From assembly GCA_016932385.1 (NCBI GenBank), contig JAFGCY010000005.1:1-64000 (forward strand): a stretch of 64,000 nucleotides of DNA, in the 5' to 3' direction. This document shows, one piece after another, positions 8,393 to 40,478 of this stretch. Source of the DNA: a bacterium. GTDB lineage: Bacteria; 4484-113; JAFGCY01. Numbering within the stretch: the stretch's first letter is position 1; every line of letters starts with the position of its first letter. The position numbers and the translations under genes were made by a program. Under the pieces are notes generated by a model. It was given only the letters and a program-made list of their open reading frames with translations. It searched no databases and was not told the DNA's origin.

Positions 8393-9172
8393 TTATGTCG
8401 GCATCTTGCCGATCTGATTGGCGGCGATGTTGAGCGTGGCGTCCTCGGTGATGATCGCCTTCTCCGCCGCCTGGTAATGCCTGAGCTGGACGATCAGCTC
8501 AGTAATGCAGCGGATCGCGTCGACGTTGGAACGCTCGATGAACCCGCCCTTGATCTCGCTGTCGCCGACCCCGTCGGGGGCCGCATCCGCCGTCCAGGCG
8601 TTGTAGCCGTGCTTCTCCAGCTGCTGCTGGGGATCGGTGAAATAGGCCAGGTCGATCACGCCGACGATACCGTCCTCGGTCGCGACCTCGCCGGAACGAT
8701 TGATTGTGACGTCAACGGCGTCGCCGAGGAAAATGTCGCCACCCTGCCCTTGGATGCGCCGGCCGGCGTTGTCCGTCAGGTAACCGTCGGCGGTGTGGCG
8801 GAATTGGCCGTCGCGCGTGTAATACTCGGTGCCGGCGGCATCGACCACGCGGAAGAATCCCGGCCCGACGATCGCCGCATCCAGCGCCTGGCCCGTGTAC
8901 ACCAGCTGGCCTTGCTCGAAGTCACGCCAGATCTCGGTGTCCCACGTACCGACGTTGGTCAGGCCGATATACTCCGGCCGCGGCTCGCCGGCCTTGTTGG
9001 TGAAAGTCGGATCGTCCAGGCGCCAGGTATGGATCGCCGGGGCGGATACGAAGCGCAGCAGATCGGCCTTGAAGCCGACGGTGTCGACATTGGCCAGATT
9101 ATTGGACGTCGTGGCGGTCTGCTCCTGTATGGTCAGCATTCCACCCGCTGCTGCATATAACCCGCGAATCAT
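8393..9172 (-). CDS. flgF: Flagellar rod protein FlgF
   Basis: 259 residues. It starts MIRGLYAAAGGMLTIQEQ, then NNLANVDTVGFKADLL, and has the GFFRVVDAAGTEYYTRDGQF core and a C-terminal GGFIERSNVDAIRCITELI. The end reads HYQAAEKAIITEDATLN instead of the FEAN..... of FlgG. It is the first gene of the operon, 168 nt before flgG, with GGAG upstream of the ATG and a sigma-28 promoter beyond it. FlgF against a second FlgG paralogue is the only real alternative; order and the shorter C-terminus favour FlgF. Confidence 0.88.
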   Translation of the reverse strand: MIRGLYAAAGGMLTIQEQTATTSNNLANVDTVGFKADLLRFVSAPAIHTWRLDDPTFTNKAGEPRPEYIGLTNVGTWDTEIWRDFEQGQLVYTGQALDAAIVGPGFFRVVDAAGTEYYTRDGQFRHTADGYLTDNAGRRIQGQGGDIFLGDAVDVTINRSGEVATEDGIVGVIDLAYFTDPQQQLEKHGYNAWTADAAPDGVGDSEIKGGFIERSNVDAIRCITELIVQLRHYQAAEKAIITEDATLNIAANQIGKMPT

Positions 9173-9194
9173 GGTCCACTTTCTCCCAGTGGTG

Positions 9195-9221
9195 TTATCG
9201 GCAGCCGGGCGCCGGTCTTTA
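9195..9221 (-). promoter_or_regulatory. Sigma-28 (FliA) flagellar promoter of flgF-G-A-H-I
   Basis: On the minus strand TAAAGACC (9221-9214), 11 nt, then GCCGATAA (9202-9195). The enteric FliA consensus is TAAAG(TTT)-N11-GCCGATAA: the -10 box matches 8 of 8 and the -35 core TAAAG 5 of 5. Transcription would begin about 15 nt before the flgF ATG. Confidence 0.85.
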
Positions 9222-9306
9222 GCCCCGAACGCGCGATTTGATTAAATCTACTTTAGACCGGGAGAATGCCAGGAAACTCACCATATACTTAATAAGCAAT
9301 TCAGTT

Positions 9307-10194
9307 ATGGAGCAGGATTTGCCCAGACAGCCACTGGATAAAAACGAGCGGATCTCGCCGGAGGCGGAGTTTATCTCGAACGAAGCCGATTACCTGAAGT
9401 TCCTCGACCGCCTGTACAACGAGGAAGGCATTGACCTGGCCCAGTACAAGCAGAACCAGATGCGCCGCCGGATCAACATGACGATCAAGCAGACCGGCCA
9501 CAACACCTATTGCAGCTTCCTGGACTACGCCAAGGCCAATGAGAACGTCTACCGCAAGTTCATCGACCGAATCACGATCAACGTCAGCGAATTCATCCGC
9601 AATCCGGAGAAATTCACGATTCTGGAAACGAACTACCTCAGGCCGATGTTGAAGGGAAATCCCAACCTGACGATCTGGTCCGCCGGTTGCTCGACCGGCG
9701 AGGAACCCTATTCCCTGGCACTGCTGTTGAAGCTGAACAAGGCCGGCGCAGGCGCCAAGATCCTGGGCTGGGATTTCGACCGCAAAGCGCTGGCCAAGGC
9801 TGCCGAGGGCATCTACAACGTCGAAGCGCTCAAGAATGTCTCCAAGGACCTGCTGGACAAGTATTTCAAGCGCCTCGACAGCGAGCGCTACCAGGTTACC
9901 GACGAGCTGAAGCGATTGGTCCGGTTTGAAAACCATAATCTGCTGGAAGACCGGTTTCCCACCGGCGTGGACATCATTCTCTGCCGCAATGTGGTGATCT
10001 ATTTCAACGAGCAGAGCAAGCGCCAGCTGTTTATCCGCTTCGGCCAAGCGCTGGCGAAAAACGGGCTCTTGATGATCGGCGCCAGCGAGCGGATCGCCAA
10101 TTCCGCCGAGTCCGGCCTGCGGGCGCTGCAGCCGTTCTTCTATGTGCGCAATGAGTCGGACTGGCCCGAAACCAAGCGCACCTATCCGCGTTGA
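9307..10194 (+). CDS. cheR: Chemoreceptor glutamate methyltransferase CheR
   Basis: 295 residues from ATG 9307. It transfers methyl groups from SAM to glutamates of chemoreceptors. Motifs: the N-terminal helical part with KQNQMRRRINMTIKQTG, NVSEFIRNPEKF, the SAM loop GCSTGEEPYS (residues 127-136), and DIILCRNVVIYF near the C-terminus. It lacks the C-terminal receptor-docking extension. A TTG at 9238 in the same frame is possible, but the ATG with a TAATAA box about 12 nt upstream fits better. It is divergent from the flagellar operon. Confidence 0.92.
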   Translation: MEQDLPRQPLDKNERISPEAEFISNEADYLKFLDRLYNEEGIDLAQYKQNQMRRRINMTIKQTGHNTYCSFLDYAKANENVYRKFIDRITINVSEFIRNPEKFTILETNYLRPMLKGNPNLTIWSAGCSTGEEPYSLALLLKLNKAGAGAKILGWDFDRKALAKAAEGIYNVEALKNVSKDLLDKYFKRLDSERYQVTDELKRLVRFENHNLLEDRFPTGVDIILCRNVVIYFNEQSKRQLFIRFGQALAKNGLLMIGASERIANSAESGLRALQPFFYVRNESDWPETKRTYPR

Positions 10195-10230
10195 GTCCCG
10201 CGCGCGCTCCGCCAATGGCGCGCCGGCCGG

Positions 10231-10236
10231 TATAAT
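10231..10236 (+). promoter_or_regulatory. -10 box of lysS
   Basis: TATAAT preceded by GCCGG and followed 14 nt later by GTG 10251 and 32 nt later by GTG 10269. No good -35 box is visible. Confidence 0.6.
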
Positions 10237-10268
10237 CCTGCGTTCAATCCGTGAACGAGGATGTTGAC

Positions 10269-11789
10269 GTGGATAACACGAAGGATCTGAATCAGGAACC
10301 GCTGACGGAAGGCAGTACCGAAGGCTACCGCCAGATCAAGCTGGACAAACTCGGCGCACTCCAGACCGCCGGCCACGATCCGTTCAGCCAGGTGCGCTAC
10401 GACCGCACCCACTGCGCGGCGTCGATCGAGGCTTGCTACGACGAGCTGGAGGGCCAGGCGGTCAGCCTGGCCGGGCGCCTGATGGCCAAGCGCCTGCATG
10501 GCAAGGCCGGCTTCGGCGACATCATGGACGAAAGCGGCCGCGTGCAGATCTATTTCAAAAAGGATGTATTGGGCGAGGAAGCCCTGGAACAGGCCAAGGA
10601 ACTGGATCTGGGCGACATTATCGGCCTCAAGGGCCGGGTGTTCAAGACGCGCACCGGCCAGGTCACCGTCGAGGTCGGCGAATTCACGCTGTTGGCCAAA
10701 ATCCTCCAGACGCTGCCGGAGAAGTGGCACGGCCTGCAGGACGTCGACCAGCGCTATCGCCAGCGCTACGTGGACCTGATCGTCAACCGCGACGTGCTGG
10801 AACGCCTGCGGCTGCGCAGCCGCGCGGTCAGCGAGATCCGCCGTTTCCTGGACGGCCGCGGCTTCTTGGAAGTCGAGACGCCGATGCTGCACGCGATCAG
10901 CGGCGGCGCGACGGCCGAGCCGTTCAAGACCTACTGGAACGCGCTGAAGAGCGACTACTACCTGCGTATCGCGATCGAGCTGCACCTGAAGCGGCTGATC
11001 GTCGGCGGCTTCGAGCGGGTCTACGAGATCGGCCGCGTGTTCCGAAACGAGGGCGTGGACACCAGCCACAACCCCGAGTTCACGATGCTCGAACTCTACT
11101 GGGCCTACGTCGACTACACCGATATCATGGCGCTGACCGAGGAGCTGACGCGCCACGTCGCGCGCGAGGTATTCAAATCCGAGCAGGTCACCTACGGCGA
11201 ATACGAACTGGACTTCAGCCAGCCGTTTAGAAAAGTGAAGTTCGACGACGCGATGCGCGAGTATGCCGGTTGCAGCCTGGCGGAACTCAAGACGATGGAC
11301 GACCTCAAGCGCGAGGCAGCGCGGCTTGAGATCAAGCTGCCCGAGGAGCGCGGCTTCGGCCGCTGCCTGGACGAGATCTTCAAGGAAATGGTGGAGCCCC
11401 ACCTGGTCCAGCCAACGTTCATCATCGACTACCCGGTCTCGATCAGCCCATTGGCCAAGCGGATGAGCGCGGCAGACAAGGCGGCGGCGGGCTATCCCGC
11501 CGACCTGGACGTGACCTACCGCTTCGAGCTGTTCGCGGCGACGATGGAACTGGCCAACAGCTTTAGCGAGCTGAACGACCCGGTCGACCAGCGCCAGCGG
11601 CTGGAATACCAGATTGCCGACAAGGCCGAGGGCGCCAGCGAGCTGGACGAGGACTTCCTGACGGCGATGGAGTACGGCATGCCGCCGATGGGCGGCCTGG
11701 GCATCGGCATCGACCGCCTGATCATGATCCTCTCGGGCACCCCGGCGATCCGCGAGGTGATTATCTTCCCGCAGTTGAGGCATAAGTAG
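10269..11789 (+). CDS. lysS: Lysyl-tRNA synthetase, class II
   Basis: 506 residues. It charges tRNA-Lys. Order: N-terminal OB fold (anticodon binding, VSLAGRLMAKRLHGKAGFGD), then the class II core with motif 1 around GFLEVETPMLHAISGGA, motif 2 VYEIGRVFRNEGVDTSHNPEF, and motif 3 GLGIGIDRLIMILSG. Length and motifs are standard. GTG 10269 is preferred because ACGAGG lies 8-9 nt upstream; GTG 10251 would add six residues and cannot be excluded. The stop TAG is followed by REP-like hairpins. Confidence 0.96.
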   Translation: MDNTKDLNQEPLTEGSTEGYRQIKLDKLGALQTAGHDPFSQVRYDRTHCAASIEACYDELEGQAVSLAGRLMAKRLHGKAGFGDIMDESGRVQIYFKKDVLGEEALEQAKELDLGDIIGLKGRVFKTRTGQVTVEVGEFTLLAKILQTLPEKWHGLQDVDQRYRQRYVDLIVNRDVLERLRLRSRAVSEIRRFLDGRGFLEVETPMLHAISGGATAEPFKTYWNALKSDYYLRIAIELHLKRLIVGGFERVYEIGRVFRNEGVDTSHNPEFTMLELYWAYVDYTDIMALTEELTRHVAREVFKSEQVTYGEYELDFSQPFRKVKFDDAMREYAGCSLAELKTMDDLKREAARLEIKLPEERGFGRCLDEIFKEMVEPHLVQPTFIIDYPVSISPLAKRMSAADKAAAGYPADLDVTYRFELFAATMELANSFSELNDPVDQRQRLEYQIADKAEGASELDEDFLTAMEYGMPPMGGLGIGIDRLIMILSGTPAIREVIIFPQLRHK

Positions 11790-13284: not shown

Positions 13285-16200
13285 TTAGTAGAAGAGGTTT
13301 ATATGGCCATTGCGATGCAGTAAATACAATGCTGGGACAATGATGTACTCGTTATTAACCTCATTCGGATACGTGGCTAATACTGGTGAAGCAGGACTTG
13401 AAATCAAACCAGTGCTGGTCATCAAGATCTGCGGATCATCATTGGCCGTCTGAGTATCAATCATCAATAGATCGTTATATGTAGCCAGGAATAGCTGGCC
13501 ATTATCAGTAATACAAGGAGAAGTAATACCGGATGATGACTGAACCGGCAGCGGATTCCCGTTCTCATCCACGGCATTGTCAAACGTATCTGATGCATAC
13601 ACCGGCAACCCAGTGGCTAGACTGTAACCCGCTACGTAAGCGCTCGAAGCAGTATACTGTGCCACATATACGATTCCATCTCTAACTGCCGGCGATGAAT
13701 ACTGATATGCCATATAACCATCATTTGACGACGTATACTCCCAGACCGTTGAAGTAATGTTATCTGACGCATAGGTATACAAGCCATCAGTATTACCGAC
13801 AATAACGTATCCGTTGCTATAAATCGGGTTGTTCCCAGATTGCGAGTACATTGGCATTGCTGGCGACATACCGACAAACGCGGGCCAATTTGCACCCATT
13901 GGGTCTACACAGACCAAATACTCGTCCTCGGAATAGTCCGTTACCAGGTAGTAAACCAGCGAATCATCGTAGTGTCCCAGGGCAGGTGTCGAGGCGTAAT
14001 AGCCCGTCATTGCAATAGAACTCGATGCCTGCGCTCGATCGCCTTGCGGAATATAGTGCAAATAGACTTGGCAGGGGTTGTTACCACCGATGTAGTTCAC
14101 ACCTGTTACATACACATTTCCCCAACGATCAACAACAGGAGAAGAGCAAGAAAGGTCTCGACCAATATAAATCGGGATATAATCGTCAACCGGAGTGCCG
14201 TCCATCTTCAGAGCCCATAGAAGCACACCAGCGTGTACGATTCCCTCCTCTTTATCCACGATTTCTCGGGCATACACTTTCGAAGTGTAATAAATGCGGT
14301 TATCGCAGATGCTGATCGCCGGCGAGCTGTCACAAAACTCAGCGTATGCCGGAACGGAAAGCGTCACAACTTGATGCGTATAGATGTCATACCATTGAGT
14401 TATGTTCTCTCCCCGGTGCTGCCACTCAACTGGATCGGTTGGCGCGCGGAAGGGGCTATAGCACCAGAGCGTACCATCATCATCGCCGTGGTCATCATCA
14501 CCGTCGCCGTTGTATGTGAAATATATGTAGCCATTCGTACCAACAATCGGCTCTCCCGCATGCCACAGAATCTGCGTATCCTGCAGGATTGGGAACATAT
14601 CAACAAGGGTGGCCGGTGCATCTGTCATATCGAAACCGGTTCGCCGGCTGTTGTGCAACTCTCTTCCAGACTGGATCCAACCGATATGCTCCTGTAATTC
14701 ATCTTCAGCAATAACCTCCTCATAACACCGAATATATCCATCGTCACACGCCACGAAGACTTCCTTCGGATCATCGCTATCAGTGGGAAGCATATCAGGG
14801 GAGGTTGTAGTCAGAAACCGGCTGTGCGAGGTTGAACCGAGGTTGTCATAGCCGATAAAGTCACTCACGAACGATGGACTCTGACCAGATGGCGCAAATG
14901 TACCTGATCCGCAGACATAGAATCCATAGAGGTTCTTGGCACCATTTACATACAACACCGTTTTGTCTTCTGAAAGGTAAGGCTGTGAATGGCAATCGCC
15001 AGGAATCCAGGCGGAATACCAGGCGCGGTCAGCGCAGCCATCCTGATCCAGGTCATAGTCAAACGTACCACCGTTATAGTCCCCATGATCGACAAAGGCC
15101 ACTACACGCCATTGGTCATCACTATTCTCGATGAAATACACAACATGCATTGTCGCGCTTGTAAAATCATAATAAGCGGAAACAGCAGAAGAAGCGACTT
15201 GACACTCATCTGATGCATAGAAGATGGCAGGAGTTCCATCCAGGCTACGCAACGCGAGAGTGCTAGCATCAAAGCTGTAGACTGCTTCTGGAGAAGGAGC
15301 ATATACAGCGTTACAGACGTTTTGTATTCCATCACAACTCAGCGACGCAAGCGTCTCACACATCATCACGTCCGGCGGTGTGAACCACGGGAAGTCCATG
15401 GACGCACCTTGATATATACCTGTCAGTGAGTCAAATGCTTTAACCTTACCTCGTGGTGTTGGTGTTGCTGTATAGTCAATACCAACGGTCAATACATCAC
15501 CATCAACTAGAATTGGTGTCGTTGTGTTGCTGAAGAATAAATCCATCGGATCATTAGGGTCCTGGATTCCCGCATTCCACAGCAAAGTTACGTCTGGATC
15601 ATCATTCGCATCTGCTCCAACATTCACGCAATACAGGTTGTTTACAGCGCTTGGTGTATAGCCGCCAAACCACACATAGTGATTGTTGTTTGACGTGTTC
15701 TCACTATAGATAGGTGATCCAATTGTGTATTGCCATGTTAAACCAAGATTGAACACATAATCGGTGAAACCGCTGGCATCGTCCACAATTACGTGAAATG
15801 CAGAGTTACTGTCAAGTACGTATAGCCACTTGTTGACGTCTTCTGCCGGCCAGTTAAGGTCGTTTAATCCCATATCCGCAGGATCGGCAACGGCAATACT
15901 GCTTAAGTTAGGAAAGGCACCCGACCCAAGAGCAATGTCATATGCGACAGTGCCGGCATCAAACGCATTATTCGGATCATCAGTGGTGCACACCGCCACC
16001 AGTGTTGACATCTGGTCCATACAATACAGGCGCGGGTGATATGTGTGCTCCCACTCTTGTTCATCAAATGTAGTAGGCGTTCCCAGGCCAGGCGTACCGT
16101 GGAAATGGGAATAGCATGAGCCGCATTCCCACTTCAGATGAGTTGACAAGGGATCTGATACGGTCCGACCCTGCCGGTTTCCACTAGAATACTCACCAAA

Positions 16201-16407
16201 CATATGCCAGTCGTATTCTCGCTGGTTGATCGCGCTCACTGAGCGACTTAAATCAGTTGATGGAGTTTCGTTATAATCGATAAACGGATCAGCAAACGCA
16301 GAAGTTGTTGATTCATGTTGACTTATGACGGTACTACCACCGCATGAAATACAACACAAATATGCAAATAGCACACATAATACAGCTACTACTATTCTAG
16401 TATACAA
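13285..16407 (-). CDS. Large propeller-type surface lipoprotein, AT-richer than its surroundings
   Basis: 1040 residues. TTG 16407 is the start: GGAGG lies about 7 nt upstream and the product begins MYTRIVVAVLCVLFAYLCCISC, a lipoprotein signal. The body repeats short strands such as SPAVRDGIVYVAQYT, YGNVYVTGVNYIGG-like and SPCITDNGQLFLATYN, as in PQQ-like or YncE-like beta-propellers. The protein at 55816-59268 has the same plan and a matching C-terminal block (SPCVTPDGWVYLATN). No enzyme motif. Codon and base use are visibly AT-richer than the genes on both sides, which suggests separate ancestry. The ligand is unknown. Confidence 0.75.
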   Translation of the reverse strand: MYTRIVVAVLCVLFAYLCCISCGGSTVISQHESTTSAFADPFIDYNETPSTDLSRSVSAINQREYDWHMFGEYSSGNRQGRTVSDPLSTHLKWECGSCYSHFHGTPGLGTPTTFDEQEWEHTYHPRLYCMDQMSTLVAVCTTDDPNNAFDAGTVAYDIALGSGAFPNLSSIAVADPADMGLNDLNWPAEDVNKWLYVLDSNSAFHVIVDDASGFTDYVFNLGLTWQYTIGSPIYSENTSNNNHYVWFGGYTPSAVNNLYCVNVGADANDDPDVTLLWNAGIQDPNDPMDLFFSNTTTPILVDGDVLTVGIDYTATPTPRGKVKAFDSLTGIYQGASMDFPWFTPPDVMMCETLASLSCDGIQNVCNAVYAPSPEAVYSFDASTLALRSLDGTPAIFYASDECQVASSAVSAYYDFTSATMHVVYFIENSDDQWRVVAFVDHGDYNGGTFDYDLDQDGCADRAWYSAWIPGDCHSQPYLSEDKTVLYVNGAKNLYGFYVCGSGTFAPSGQSPSFVSDFIGYDNLGSTSHSRFLTTTSPDMLPTDSDDPKEVFVACDDGYIRCYEEVIAEDELQEHIGWIQSGRELHNSRRTGFDMTDAPATLVDMFPILQDTQILWHAGEPIVGTNGYIYFTYNGDGDDDHGDDDGTLWCYSPFRAPTDPVEWQHRGENITQWYDIYTHQVVTLSVPAYAEFCDSSPAISICDNRIYYTSKVYAREIVDKEEGIVHAGVLLWALKMDGTPVDDYIPIYIGRDLSCSSPVVDRWGNVYVTGVNYIGGNNPCQVYLHYIPQGDRAQASSSIAMTGYYASTPALGHYDDSLVYYLVTDYSEDEYLVCVDPMGANWPAFVGMSPAMPMYSQSGNNPIYSNGYVIVGNTDGLYTYASDNITSTVWEYTSSNDGYMAYQYSSPAVRDGIVYVAQYTASSAYVAGYSLATGLPVYASDTFDNAVDENGNPLPVQSSSGITSPCITDNGQLFLATYNDLLMIDTQTANDDPQILMTSTGLISSPASPVLATYPNEVNNEYIIVPALYLLHRNGHINLFY

Positions 16408-35868: not shown

Positions 35869-35995
35869 GCACCGCGCCGGTTGCGCAATCCAGCTTCTCG
35901 GTTCTTGCCCTGCACAATGCCTGCCGCTAGAAAGCCGGGCGTCCCGCCCTGGGCCGGGTCCCGGCAGCGCTACGGCATGTCGCGGGTCGAACTGA

Positions 35996-36001
35996 TATAA
36001 T
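35996..36001 (+). promoter_or_regulatory. -10 box of tRNA-Ser
   Basis: TATAAT ending 13 nt before the mature tRNA 5' end. Confidence 0.6.
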
Positions 36002-36014
36002 CTCTGTCCGATCC

Positions 36015-36101
36015 GGAGAGGTGACCGAGCGGCTTAAGGTGCACGCCTGGAAAGCGTGTGTGCGGTAACACGTACCGAGGGTTCGAATCCCTCCCTCTCC
36101 G
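36015..36101 (+). tRNA. tRNA-Ser (anticodon GGA)
   Basis: A 7-bp acceptor stem, GGAGAGG (36015-36021) with CCTCTCC (36094-36100), and discriminator G. Anticodon stem CACGC/GCGTG (42-46 and 54-58) with loop CTGGAAA, anticodon GGA at 36049-36051. A long variable arm (class II), then the T arm GAGGG-TTCGAAT-CCCTC. CCA is not encoded. Confidence 0.96.
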
Positions 36102-36665
36102 TTTCGACAGACGCACCCCACTGCCCTCATGCCCCGCCTGAATAATCATGCACCTGCGCGCACCATTAAGAAATGTTCGGCTCCTGACTTTCTTAACGCC
36201 GAAGTTCTTAGGCCATTTGGCCGTTTTTAGCATTTTGCCCACCATGGCCAGCCCGGTTTTGCCAGCCCGGGCTCTCTTTCGCCGATTTTCTGCCATAAAG
36301 GGTTGTATATTCGCGCTTCCTGGCTGTATGATACAAAGCGCTAGGTTACTGTTTTCGTGACATTGTACGGATGGACGGGAAAAGTGAATTCAGCATATGC
36401 AGCATGTCTGCATAGGGGACGTTATGAATAGCCAGGCTGCATTAGGCCAGCTGACAGGCCGGGCCTATGGATCAGCCGTTGATCCGCTGGGAGTCCGGAG
36501 ATGTGAATGCGGGTATACGAGTCCTGGCAATTACTTCGGAAGGTGTCCTGGATCCATGAGATATACAGGAGTATTAACTGTCCTGCTTGTCGGTTAACTA
36601 TAGATGCAATGTAAACAGTCTCTTAGACTATAGATCAGTGGATTGCTTCAAATTGGGGAAAAACT
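36102..36665. other. AT-rich transition next to tRNA-Ser, no clear gene
   Basis: GGCC-ATTT-GGCC followed by GTTTTTA (36211-36228) could terminate the tRNA transcript. An imperfect AGCCCGG/CCGGGCT inverted repeat lies near 36253-36276. Base composition falls from GC-rich at 36100 to clearly AT-richer by 36300. A 66-codon frame (36397-36597) has no support. I see no integrase remnant and no copy of the tRNA 3' end. Confidence 0.5.
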
Positions 36666-39600
36666 ATGGATACATCAGCATTTTTAGTAAATGGAACAGA
36701 TATAGATAGGTGGGCAGCGGATAGTATAATTGCGGAGTCACACCTTCCAGTGTTGGTTCGGAAGCTCATTAGAGCCTCTTGCCCTTCAGCAATAATTCAG
36801 CAGTTCAGAGATGAGAAAGGGATTTACTTACCCGGATGGGACGGAATTGTAGAGACACCAACGGGCGGTGCACAAATCCCGGCAGGGAAGTCAGTGTGGG
36901 AACTCAGTGTTAGAGGAGACTGCCAGCAAAAGGCAGAAGAGGACTACCAAACACGAACCACCAAGCCTCTCGATGAAGACCCAAGCCAGTGTTGCTTGAT
37001 TCTAGTTACAGCTAGAAAATGGCCTAAGAAGGATGCTTGGCAGAAATCCAAAATGGCCGAAGGTAAATGGCGCGACATAAAGGTCTACGATGCAGATGAT
37101 CTTGCTCAATGGCTCGAATCTTTTAGGGCAGTTCACCTGGAGTTTTCAACGATGTTGGGCAAAGCTCCATACGGAGTTAGAGTTTTAAAAGACTACTGGC
37201 ATGATTGGTCACATGCCACAACCCTGCCGATTACTCCGCAGCTATTACTTGCAGGTAGACAAGACGCAGCCAAGAAAGTAATTAATTGGCTCGCTGGTAA
37301 CTACACAAATCTCAACTTACAAGCTGATACACCAAGTGAAGCAATAGCCTTTCTAGCCGCAGTCATTATGACTTTGCCATCTGACGATAGAGAGCTGGCC
37401 TTTAGCAAAGCACTGGTTGTTGAGGACAACGCATCTTGGCGACAACTAATTGTACGGGATGAGCAGCTCATCCTAGTTGCACATCAGCCAGATCGCAACA
37501 GCATCAATATAAACCTTGATGGTAGCAAGCACTTGGTTTTCATACCGCTAGGACCTGCTGAAAGGGCAGGCGAAGATGACATCATATTGCCACGAGTTAG
37601 CTATCTAGGTGTAAGGGAGATTCTGGAAAGCGTCGGAGTGAAAGGAAATGTCGATGAGCTAGCACAGACCATGAGACACAGCCTTGGAGCATTTCGCCGG
37701 TTGCTTGCCAAGAATAAAGTGATATTGATCCCAGAATGGGCCAAGACACCTAATGCAGCTCTGATCCCAGCCATACTACTAACGCAATGGGAGGACAGCA
37801 ACGAGCATGACAAAGGTGCTATCGAAAGACTTAGTGGCAATAAGTATTCACAAACGTTGGAAGTACTTAAAACCTTGTCACGAATCTCAGATCCACCTGT
37901 ACGCGTGCACGGGAACATCTGGAGAATCGTCTCACCCCAGGATTCATGGGAGCTTATTGCATCTCAGCTAGTTGACAGGAGTCTTCTGAAAGCCTTTGAA
38001 GAGCTAGCTCTTGAAATTCTTAACGAAATCGATCCGAAATGGGAACTGACCGGAAATGATAGGATGATGGCAAGCGTTTCCGGGGCAATCCCCCAGTACT
38101 CGCACACATTACGCTACGGAATGGCAAGAGCACTTGCTTTGATGGGCTCCAACCAAGAACTAAGCTCTATAGATGGCGAGGTTTATTCTGCTTGGGCAGC
38201 AGCAATCATTAGGAAGCTTTTTAAGGAATCGAAATCGTGGCAGTTTTGGGCATCTCACTATCACACTCTATCTCTCTTAGCTGAAGCTGCCCCAGACGAG
38301 TTCTTAGATGCAATAACCAGAGACTTGAGAGATGATAGCCCTTCCACAGCGGAGCTATTTAGAGAAGAAGAGGATGACTTCTTGACTGCTTCGCCGCACT
38401 GTGGGTTGCTGTGGGCATTAGAAGTACTCGCCTGGAGTCCGGACTACCTATCTTCTGCCGCCTTAGCGTTGGCAAAACTGGTAGCCCTCGATCCAGGTGG
38501 CAGTTTAGCTAATCGCCCACTTAACAGTCTGCAACGAATCTTCTGCAACTGGCATCCTTACACGAGCGCCAGCTTGGAAGAGAGATTGCAGGTACTTGAA
38601 TTACTGTATATAAAAGAACCGGCAGTTGTTTGGGAGCTGCTGTTAAGTCTGCTACCTAGTGTCTCCTCGATGGTTCACAACGCACAAATGCCCCACTATA
38701 GGGATTGGGTACCAGAAAGCCTGGGAACTATTACGTACGGAGAAATTTGGGAAACGACCTCAAAAGCAGTTTCTTGGCTTTTAAAGTTGGTTGATACAGA
38801 TGTAGATCGATGGTGTCAGCTCCTAAGCTACGTTGTGAGACTATCAGATGAAGACTCTGTAACAATAGTGGACAAACTACTGTTGAGAGATAATGAAATC
38901 TCTGATTCTGAGAAGCGTTGGCAAATCTGGAGTACCGCTAATAAGCAACTTGCCCTTCTTGATAAGCGGGAAGCAGGCGCAGCTAGCAAGGGCAAACATC
39001 AAACCACATTACTAGAGTCAGTCCGTGATACGTTTAACCCTTCGGAGGATGCTGATTCTGCTAGGTGGTTATTCTGCAATCAGGCATGGTTAGAGTTAAA
39101 GGACACGGAGTATCCTGAATACAAAGACAAAGATACTCGCATTCAGGAGCTACGTCTTGAAGCAGTGAAAAAGCTTTGGCAGAAACTGAGTTGGGAAGGT
39201 GTCCTTGAACTCGCGGGAAAGGTGAACAGCCCAAATGCTCTTGGCTGGACAGCTGGTGTTGGCTTGAAGTCAGTTGAAGACGAAGCTAAGACGTTAGAAT
39301 CCTGGATAAGCTCTGAAATCAAACACCTCCGCGAATTTGGATTAGGATACATTGGAGGTAGGATCAATCAAGTTGGCCAAGCCTGGGTGATCGATCTGCT
39401 AACTTCACGCTCATCGGGCGATAGGAGTTGTCAGTTTAAAGTTGAACTGATTAAGTTCCTGCCATTTAATGCAGCAACTTGGGACTTGCTTGAGAAAGAT
39501 CAACAAGAGGTTGGAACGCTCTATTGGCAAAGTGTTTGGCCATTTGGTAAGTCTGCTTCACAGGAGGAGTACGAAAGAGCAATAGATGAACTAGAGAAAT

Positions 39601-40478
39601 GCGAAAGGTATCTGTCGGCTTTAGAGTATATCCGAGACCAGCAAAGATACGATCATTTGGAATTTCCGGCAGACAAGGCAATTTATCTCCTGTTTGCTTT
39701 GGCAAATAACCCACCGAGTATTGAGAGCTCGAATGAAAAGGTAATGCTGGACTACACAGTAGGAGAGATAATTCGCGCCCTGTGCGAGTCAAATCTTGTT
39801 GATTCCTCGGTTATCGCAAAATTGCAGTATGCGTATCTTCCAATCTATGCACATGGTCGTCAAAAACCAATGGAGCTATTCAGACTTCTTGGTGATAAGC
39901 CAGCGGTTTTCATGGAAGTCCTCCGTGGTGCTTACAAACGGAAAGACGATGGACGTAAGGAGCAAAAGGCGGATAGTACATCAAAAGCTAACGCACGACA
40001 CAACTGGAATGTGTTACATGAATGGTCGCTGCCGCCTGGATGCGCTGGTGATGGCAGCGTAGATTCATCAAAGCTGCAGTCTTGGGTGCGCGAGGTTAGA
40101 GAGCTAGCTGAAAAGGAAGATCTAAAAGTTCCCTGCGACGCAGCAATTGGACGTGTGTTAGCGCACATGCCTATCGGTGCAGATGGTGTTTGGCCCCATG
40201 AAGCTCTCAGAGACCTTATTCAGGAAATGTCTTGTGAATCACTTGAGAACGAACTTTACTGCGGGATATTGAACACCAGAGGTATGGTTTCAAAGAGCTT
40301 GGGTGAAGGTGGAAAGCAGGAACGGGTTTTATCTGATAAATACACCCAGTATGCTGACAAACTAAGGAGCCGGTGGCCTAGAATCTCAGCAGTACTTCGA
40401 GGTGTTGCCAAAAGCTACAAGCTTCAGGCTAAGAGAGAGGATGAACGTAGTACTTTGGAAGAAGACGGTATTTTTTAG
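36666..40478 (+). CDS. Large putative nuclease-helical defence-type protein in an AT-rich island
   Basis: 1270 residues. GGGGA lies about 8 nt before the ATG. Residues 57-150 carry GWDG, then AGKSVWELS (E79), QKAEEDYQTRT (K89), LVTARKWPKKDAW and a WRDIKVYDADDLAQWLES end. This block looks like a PD-(D/E)XK restriction-type fold with Asp59, Glu79 and possibly Lys89 as the site, the lysine being displaced from its usual place. The middle (190-310) has an NTPase-like layout (QADTPSEAIAFLAAVI) without a Walker A GxGKT. The rest is helical and leucine-rich. The gene is AT-rich beside GC-rich neighbours and lies next to a tRNA. I recognise the N-terminal pattern as recurring in large uncharacterised proteins; a defence role is an inference. 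Confidence 0.7.
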   Translation: MDTSAFLVNGTDIDRWAADSIIAESHLPVLVRKLIRASCPSAIIQQFRDEKGIYLPGWDGIVETPTGGAQIPAGKSVWELSVRGDCQQKAEEDYQTRTTKPLDEDPSQCCLILVTARKWPKKDAWQKSKMAEGKWRDIKVYDADDLAQWLESFRAVHLEFSTMLGKAPYGVRVLKDYWHDWSHATTLPITPQLLLAGRQDAAKKVINWLAGNYTNLNLQADTPSEAIAFLAAVIMTLPSDDRELAFSKALVVEDNASWRQLIVRDEQLILVAHQPDRNSININLDGSKHLVFIPLGPAERAGEDDIILPRVSYLGVREILESVGVKGNVDELAQTMRHSLGAFRRLLAKNKVILIPEWAKTPNAALIPAILLTQWEDSNEHDKGAIERLSGNKYSQTLEVLKTLSRISDPPVRVHGNIWRIVSPQDSWELIASQLVDRSLLKAFEELALEILNEIDPKWELTGNDRMMASVSGAIPQYSHTLRYGMARALALMGSNQELSSIDGEVYSAWAAAIIRKLFKESKSWQFWASHYHTLSLLAEAAPDEFLDAITRDLRDDSPSTAELFREEEDDFLTASPHCGLLWALEVLAWSPDYLSSAALALAKLVALDPGGSLANRPLNSLQRIFCNWHPYTSASLEERLQVLELLYIKEPAVVWELLLSLLPSVSSMVHNAQMPHYRDWVPESLGTITYGEIWETTSKAVSWLLKLVDTDVDRWCQLLSYVVRLSDEDSVTIVDKLLLRDNEISDSEKRWQIWSTANKQLALLDKREAGAASKGKHQTTLLESVRDTFNPSEDADSARWLFCNQAWLELKDTEYPEYKDKDTRIQELRLEAVKKLWQKLSWEGVLELAGKVNSPNALGWTAGVGLKSVEDEAKTLESWISSEIKHLREFGLGYIGGRINQVGQAWVIDLLTSRSSGDRSCQFKVELIKFLPFNAATWDLLEKDQQEVGTLYWQSVWPFGKSASQEEYERAIDELEKCERYLSALEYIRDQQRYDHLEFPADKAIYLLFALANNPPSIESSNEKVMLDYTVGEIIRALCESNLVDSSVIAKLQYAYLPIYAHGRQKPMELFRLLGDKPAVFMEVLRGAYKRKDDGRKEQKADSTSKANARHNWNVLHEWSLPPGCAGDGSVDSSKLQSWVREVRELAEKEDLKVPCDAAIGRVLAHMPIGADGVWPHEALRDLIQEMSCESLENELYCGILNTRGMVSKSLGEGGKQERVLSDKYTQYADKLRSRWPRISAVLRGVAKSYKLQAKREDERSTLEEDGIF

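Follow-up and report, generated by a model that had tools for sequence, protein, structure and literature searches.

The locus and its gene

What could be the role of a 1270-residue protein that seems to join a nuclease head to an NTPase-like domain devoid of a Walker A motif, encoded by a lone gene of foreign appearance? The question is raised by one gene of the window analysed here (the whole stretch of 64,000 nucleotides from contig JAFGCY010000005.1), whose reading frame is intact, uninterrupted and opened by an ATG. The features of the locus are:

36014-36102, plus strand: tRNA-Ser(GGA) upstream of the gene, at a gap of 563 bp (tRNA call; no second copy of the 3' end found)
36655-36659, plus strand: putative Shine-Dalgarno-like GGGGA, 6 nt before the ATG
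36666-40478, plus strand: the gene, for a PD-(D/E)XK / pseudo-NTPase / alpha-solenoid protein of 1270 aa (open reading frame and family)

The composition of the reading frame (GC 0.466, GC3 0.433) departs from that of the other open reading frames of the window (GC 0.633 +/- 0.046, GC3 0.748 +/- 0.131), and the gene lies in a low-GC block of approximately 36.1-40.7 kb with a GC of about 0.47. A preliminary description of this DNA had reported a single large AT-rich gene near a tRNA gene, as is indeed found (GC 0.466 versus 0.633, with tRNA-Ser 563 bp away), and had called it the clearest foreign insertion in the window. The low GC stands, but it is shared by a second AT-rich gene (13285-16407, minus strand; 1040 aa, GC 0.476, GC3 0.47), the product of which has a lipoprotein-like N-terminus. 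Nine genomes sampled from the same family, order or class all lack the gene, which one genome among the other sampled relatives has; this distribution fits horizontal acquisition. Foreign acquisition is thus likely, on GC and patchy presence, but integration at the tRNA gene is less certain, as neither an integrase-like reading frame nor a duplicate of the tRNA-Ser 3' end was found beside the gene. Scanning the locus for promoters and terminators gave no more sites than shuffled sequence, and no recognised defence gene is a neighbour in the window. A 108-aa reading frame antisense to the tRNA-Ser gene (35970-36296, minus strand) looks spurious.

An unnamed and widely distributed family

In direct profile searches the window protein has no sequence match in Pfam, PADLOC, NCBIfam or the PDB, a family profile run against PDB sequences gave weak chance matches only, and a pattern scan built on the single sequence recovered no relatives. 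An alignment-based scan of the genome contigs of one collection returned 549 relatives by one pattern, 80 of which were retained, from Methanosaeta, Bacteroidota, Pseudomonadota, Actinomycetota, Bacillota, Planctomycetota and others. Searches with tblastn matched 22 plasmids (18 at 80% of the length or more, with 26-30% identity), ten viral contigs carry a family member, and a form fused to a helix-turn-helix (HTH) domain is present in 82 of 5,426 complete E. coli genomes. The HTH-fused homologue of E. coli has the accession WP_022645558. The family, which is unnamed, is distributed across bacteria of many phyla and archaea. No publication on it was found in the open-access journal literature, and the accessions of its relatives are named in no open paper that was found. 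The proposal of an undescribed effector therefore holds insofar as no paper on the family was found, but the protein has hundreds of relatives and a described distant one, PD-lambda-4 A.

Domain architecture

The predicted domains and residues of the protein are:

36666-37160, plus strand: PD-(D/E)XK-type nuclease domain, residues 1-165 (AlphaFold topology, conservation, alignment to the PD-lambda-4 A site)
36840-36842, plus strand: D59 of the nuclease domain
36900-36902, plus strand: E79 of the nuclease domain
36930-36932, plus strand: K89 of the nuclease domain
37233-37730, plus strand: Rossmann-like pseudo-NTPase domain, residues 190-355 (AlphaFold, Foldseek, conservation, profile alignment)
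37338-37340, plus strand: acidic residue 225 at the P-loop position
37731-38075, plus strand: winged-helix-like linker, residues 356-470, approximately where the shared C-terminal module begins (secondary structure; start of the match in head-swapped members)
37863-40475, plus strand: alpha-solenoid (HEAT/karyopherin-like), residues 400-1270, presumed phage sensor (AlphaFold, Foldseek, hhalign)

The AlphaFold model of residues 1-470 (pLDDT 93.9, pTM 0.91) places in the head a helix (20-38), three strands (43-47, 60-64 and 74-81), a further helix (86-99) and a strand (109-115), which is the alpha-beta-beta-beta-alpha-beta order of a PD-(D/E)XK core whose acidic positions fall on strands 2 and 3; D59 and E79 lie on adjacent strands and K89 in a helix. 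Across 90 full-length sequences D59, G60, E79 and W149 are invariant (each 90/90), K89 and D93 are each kept in 86, and R97 is near-invariant. The short N-terminal motifs that the preliminary description had quoted are present in the window protein and, being conserved in the full-length family alignments, are not a product of chance; its assignment of a PD-(D/E)XK head is borne out by the agreement between the model of residues 1-470 and the conservation of D59 and E79. The usual lysine of the E-x-K motif is absent, position 81 being G or S in 87 of the 90 sequences (G, S or T in 89). Judging from the alignment, K89, in the helix after the E79 strand, may substitute for the missing catalytic residue, and because the lysine is lacking from the E-x-K position the predicted nuclease activity would depend on it.

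At the P-loop position of the central domain the window protein reads QADTPSEAIAF and the family A-x-S/T-x-x-E-A-x-A-F, with residue 225 E or D in 90/90. A Walker A motif occurs in 0/90 members, and the Walker B acid (D/E at 271-273) is mostly missing as well, with only 5/90 having one. The best PDB fold matches of residues 1-470 are to Avs5 (9nc9, E 6e-4), Avs4 (8dgf) and Avs3 (8dgc), matches that are significant yet modest (Foldseek E ~1e-3, TM ~0.3), followed by AAA+ clamp loaders and NB-ARC proteins. An NTPase-like region without Walker A, as had been described, is thus supported by the Rossmann-like secondary structure, by these fold matches and by the count across the family. By all appearances of sequence, the central NTPase domain is dead and its P-loop lost family-wide.

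The C-terminal part, described earlier as long, helical and sensor-like, is predicted to be an alpha-solenoid of ~870 aa (pLDDT 91.0), for which the role of sensor is presumed. Foldseek likens it to karyopherin/HEAT proteins, a generic fold for protein binding. A fold search against viral models gave no match at E <= 0.001.

Exchange of the N-terminal head

Some members, among them prophage and plasmid copies, have a different N-terminus, and in these the match to the family starts only at about residue 353-369. The C-terminal module alone is common to two such groups, L019, L101-L106, L109 and L141 on the one hand (all but L019 being viral-contig and E. coli loci) and L007, L107 and L140 on the other; the nuclease and the NTPase-like block are missing from members such as L019 and L007. 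The head of the first group, ~300 aa long, resembles a nuclease by its DD...GQ[VI]K motif alone, and Pfam gives no convincing match for it. The second has a head of only ~40 aa, and the gene upstream is assigned by NCBIfam to GapS6a (NF047935 'antiphage_GapS6a', E 4.7e-41 and 7.6e-38), which is found next to the family C-module in these three loci only. Since both groups are nested within the PD-(D/E)XK-headed family in a tree of the C-module (support 98), the head was replaced within the family.

An N-terminal HTH (HTH_3, HTH_17) is carried by approximately half of the full-length members and is lacking in the window protein. The C-module tree, obtained by a quick method and with some long branches, requires the HTH to have been gained or lost seven times or more, the HTH label being the length of the N-terminal extension (Pfam HTH matches were checked in four members).

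Some loci have further peculiarities. In L007 the GapS6a protein (8561-8878) terminates with SGTGDNVGGNKI, and TGTGHNVAGDLTI opens the protein encoded after it (8887-11652); the two partners thus carry similar glycine-rich motifs, which may be a pairing signal. Directly upstream of the full-length gene, L078 has a separate gene (9989-11071) that reads like the nuclease domain alone, and L076 has a separate gene in the same place (9944-11155) that clusters with it.

Genomic neighbourhoods of relatives

The GapS6a-linked form of E. coli O39 belongs to a P2-like prophage, where an Ogr/Delta-like gene and a late-control-D gene flank it, and P2-like prophages carry defence hotspots (PMC9519451). 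The HTH-fused E. coli form occupies an integrase-bearing island, where its neighbours are a PbeA-like helicase and a gene of 1727 aa. The latter (L139:9425-14608, minus strand), which is divergent from the family member, has weak profile similarity to PDC-M54A and Avs4 and is itself a candidate defence gene. On plasmids, AbiE/Abi, type I restriction-modification, Shedu-domain, SIR2 or PD-lambda-4 genes lie within 9 kb of the family gene in 6/8 loci and in 0/8 control stretches of equal size from the same plasmids, in a small comparison by annotation names in which several DNA methyltransferases are present in one control and toxin-antitoxin genes in three. These defence, plasmid and prophage contexts, together with homology to PD-lambda-4 A, support the reading as an Avs-like immune effector suggested at the outset.

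Divergent AbiEi/AbiEii genes stand 27-143 bp upstream in 15/51 HTH-fused members (L010, L012, L028, L030, L035, L037, L041, L046, L048, L061, L062, L069, L070, L079 and L086; L041, close to a contig end, has AbiEi alone), and this divergent arrangement leaves room for shared regulation. Apart from AbiE, no partner gene recurs often among the neighbours of relatives, so the gene probably acts alone.

Proposed mechanism and alternative explanations

From homology, fold and genomic context we infer a protective function, and the reading that we prefer, with a probability of roughly 0.7, is that of an anti-phage receptor and effector encoded by a single gene, nuclease-headed, of the Avs/PD-lambda-4 type and with a dead NTPase. 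The C-terminal alpha-solenoid would bind a phage component, and a change of conformation, or oligomerisation, would carry the signal across the winged-helix and pseudo-NTPase block with no nucleotide binding, a relay suggested because both Walker motifs have been lost. The predicted PD-(D/E)XK head (D59, E79 and probably K89) would thereby be activated to cut DNA and halt the infection, perhaps via cell death. In STAND receptors, nucleotide binding is regarded as the switch. That the family as a whole is of STAND type without such a switch, its P-loop lost, its core retained as a scaffold or dropped, and one solenoid sensor combined with exchangeable effectors (the PD-(D/E)XK head, the QxK nuclease-like head, or GapS6a in trans), is a more tentative proposal, to which we give slightly less than even odds.

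It might be objected that the core still binds a nucleotide or another ligand non-canonically and so retains a STAND-type switch: the fold is kept and all 90 members have an acidic residue at 225, and the pocket may therefore have been repurposed. We regard this as unlikely, given that the Walker B acid has gone too (present in 5/90) and that the head-swapped L019 and L007 do without the block. A second alternative is a restriction-like surveillance of DNA, in which foreign DNA would be recognised directly and cut, with the pseudo-NTPase as a DNA-binding scaffold and no sensing of phage proteins. The PD-(D/E)XK head and the HTH_3/HTH_17 fusions of about half of the full-length members would suit such a reader of DNA, but the other half, with the window protein, lacks an HTH, the neighbours include no recurrent methyltransferase partner, the solenoid resembles folds that bind protein, and retention of the C-module when the head is exchanged fits a receptor better; the explanation is accordingly rather improbable.

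Least credible is an addiction-like role, that of a toxic nuclease autoregulated by its HTH that stabilises mobile elements, with or beside AbiE. Numerous copies are in fact plasmid-borne, and AbiEi/AbiEii are divergently encoded upstream of the 15 HTH-fused members listed above; most members, however, have no adjacent AbiE, and both the homology to PD-lambda-4 A and the prophage site of the GapS6a-linked form favour defence.

If the anti-phage reading is correct, a family without a P-loop beside a sister, PD-lambda-4 A, that has one makes ATP-free coupling of sensing to effector directly testable. The exchangeable heads would help to delimit the sensor, and the 82 E. coli copies ease experimental work on the family.

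Comparison with known systems

One candidate, the Gifsy protein of PMC12724215, was dismissed, being a ParA-like ATPase with a Walker A motif. Like AVAST (Avs1-Avs5), the window family is tripartite by its AlphaFold models, with an effector, a STAND-type core and a C-terminal repeat sensor, and Avs5, Avs4 and Avs3 are the top PDB fold matches of the window protein. It differs in having no sequence match to them and neither Walker A nor Walker B; in Avs5 the P-loop is essential, and immunity is lost when its Gly or Lys is altered (PMC12931631). GAPS6 is approached through GapS6a, whose gene stands directly upstream of a family C-module in E. coli, in Buttiauxella and on a viral contig. The second gene there is the family C-module, to which no NCBIfam model was matched, and the window protein, in contrast, comes with a nuclease of its own and without a GapS6a gene directly upstream. 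No mention of GapS6a was found in openly accessible papers.

The closest likeness is to PD-lambda-4 A (PADLOC PDLC03991), which came to light in E. coli through a functional selection for phage defence (Vassallo et al., 2022; PMC9519451); PD-lambda-4 is listed as having a P-loop NTPase (PMC10952713). Against a profile built from an alignment of 11 PD-lambda-4 A proteins, the family gives an hhalign probability of 99.8 (E 4.5e-29) over 978 columns, with the N-terminal part alone at E 3.8e-9 (profile-profile) and the C-terminal part alone at E 9.4e-17 (hhalign). The PADLOC PD-lambda-4_A profile itself matches one 1260-aa family member weakly and over part of its length (E 9.3e-4), and its models match the window protein nowhere at E <= 1. 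Lengths are comparable (~1270-1290 aa), as is the order of domains: a PD-(D/E)XK-type head, a linker of the form 'YD..xlaxW...hPsv.lW....G', an NTPase-type fold and a helical C-terminus. Some members of both families have an N-terminal HTH-like extension; on the PD-lambda-4 A side, the protein at L147:538-5256 parallels the HTH fusions described above. The two even occur side by side, in L096, where a PD-lambda-4_A gene (E 8.7e-253) adjoins the family member, and in L011, where a comparable neighbour has 22% identity over 982 aa to the L096 PD-lambda-4_A protein.

The differences lie in the active sites. The nuclease site of PD-lambda-4 A is D53...Q76-x-K78 (QxK), that of the window family E79-x-G/S, with a Lys placed in the helix that follows; and Walker A (GLSGVGKT) is retained in PD-lambda-4 A, GxxGxGK[ST] being kept in 11/11 proteins, whereas the window family has lost both Walker motifs. 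The absent P-loop, which had been held to set the window protein apart, does so with respect to PD-lambda-4 A but not within its own family, all of which shares the loss (0/90). As their sequences align over 978 columns but the P-loop has been lost, the window family is best described as a P-loop-less cousin of PD-lambda-4 A and not as a member.
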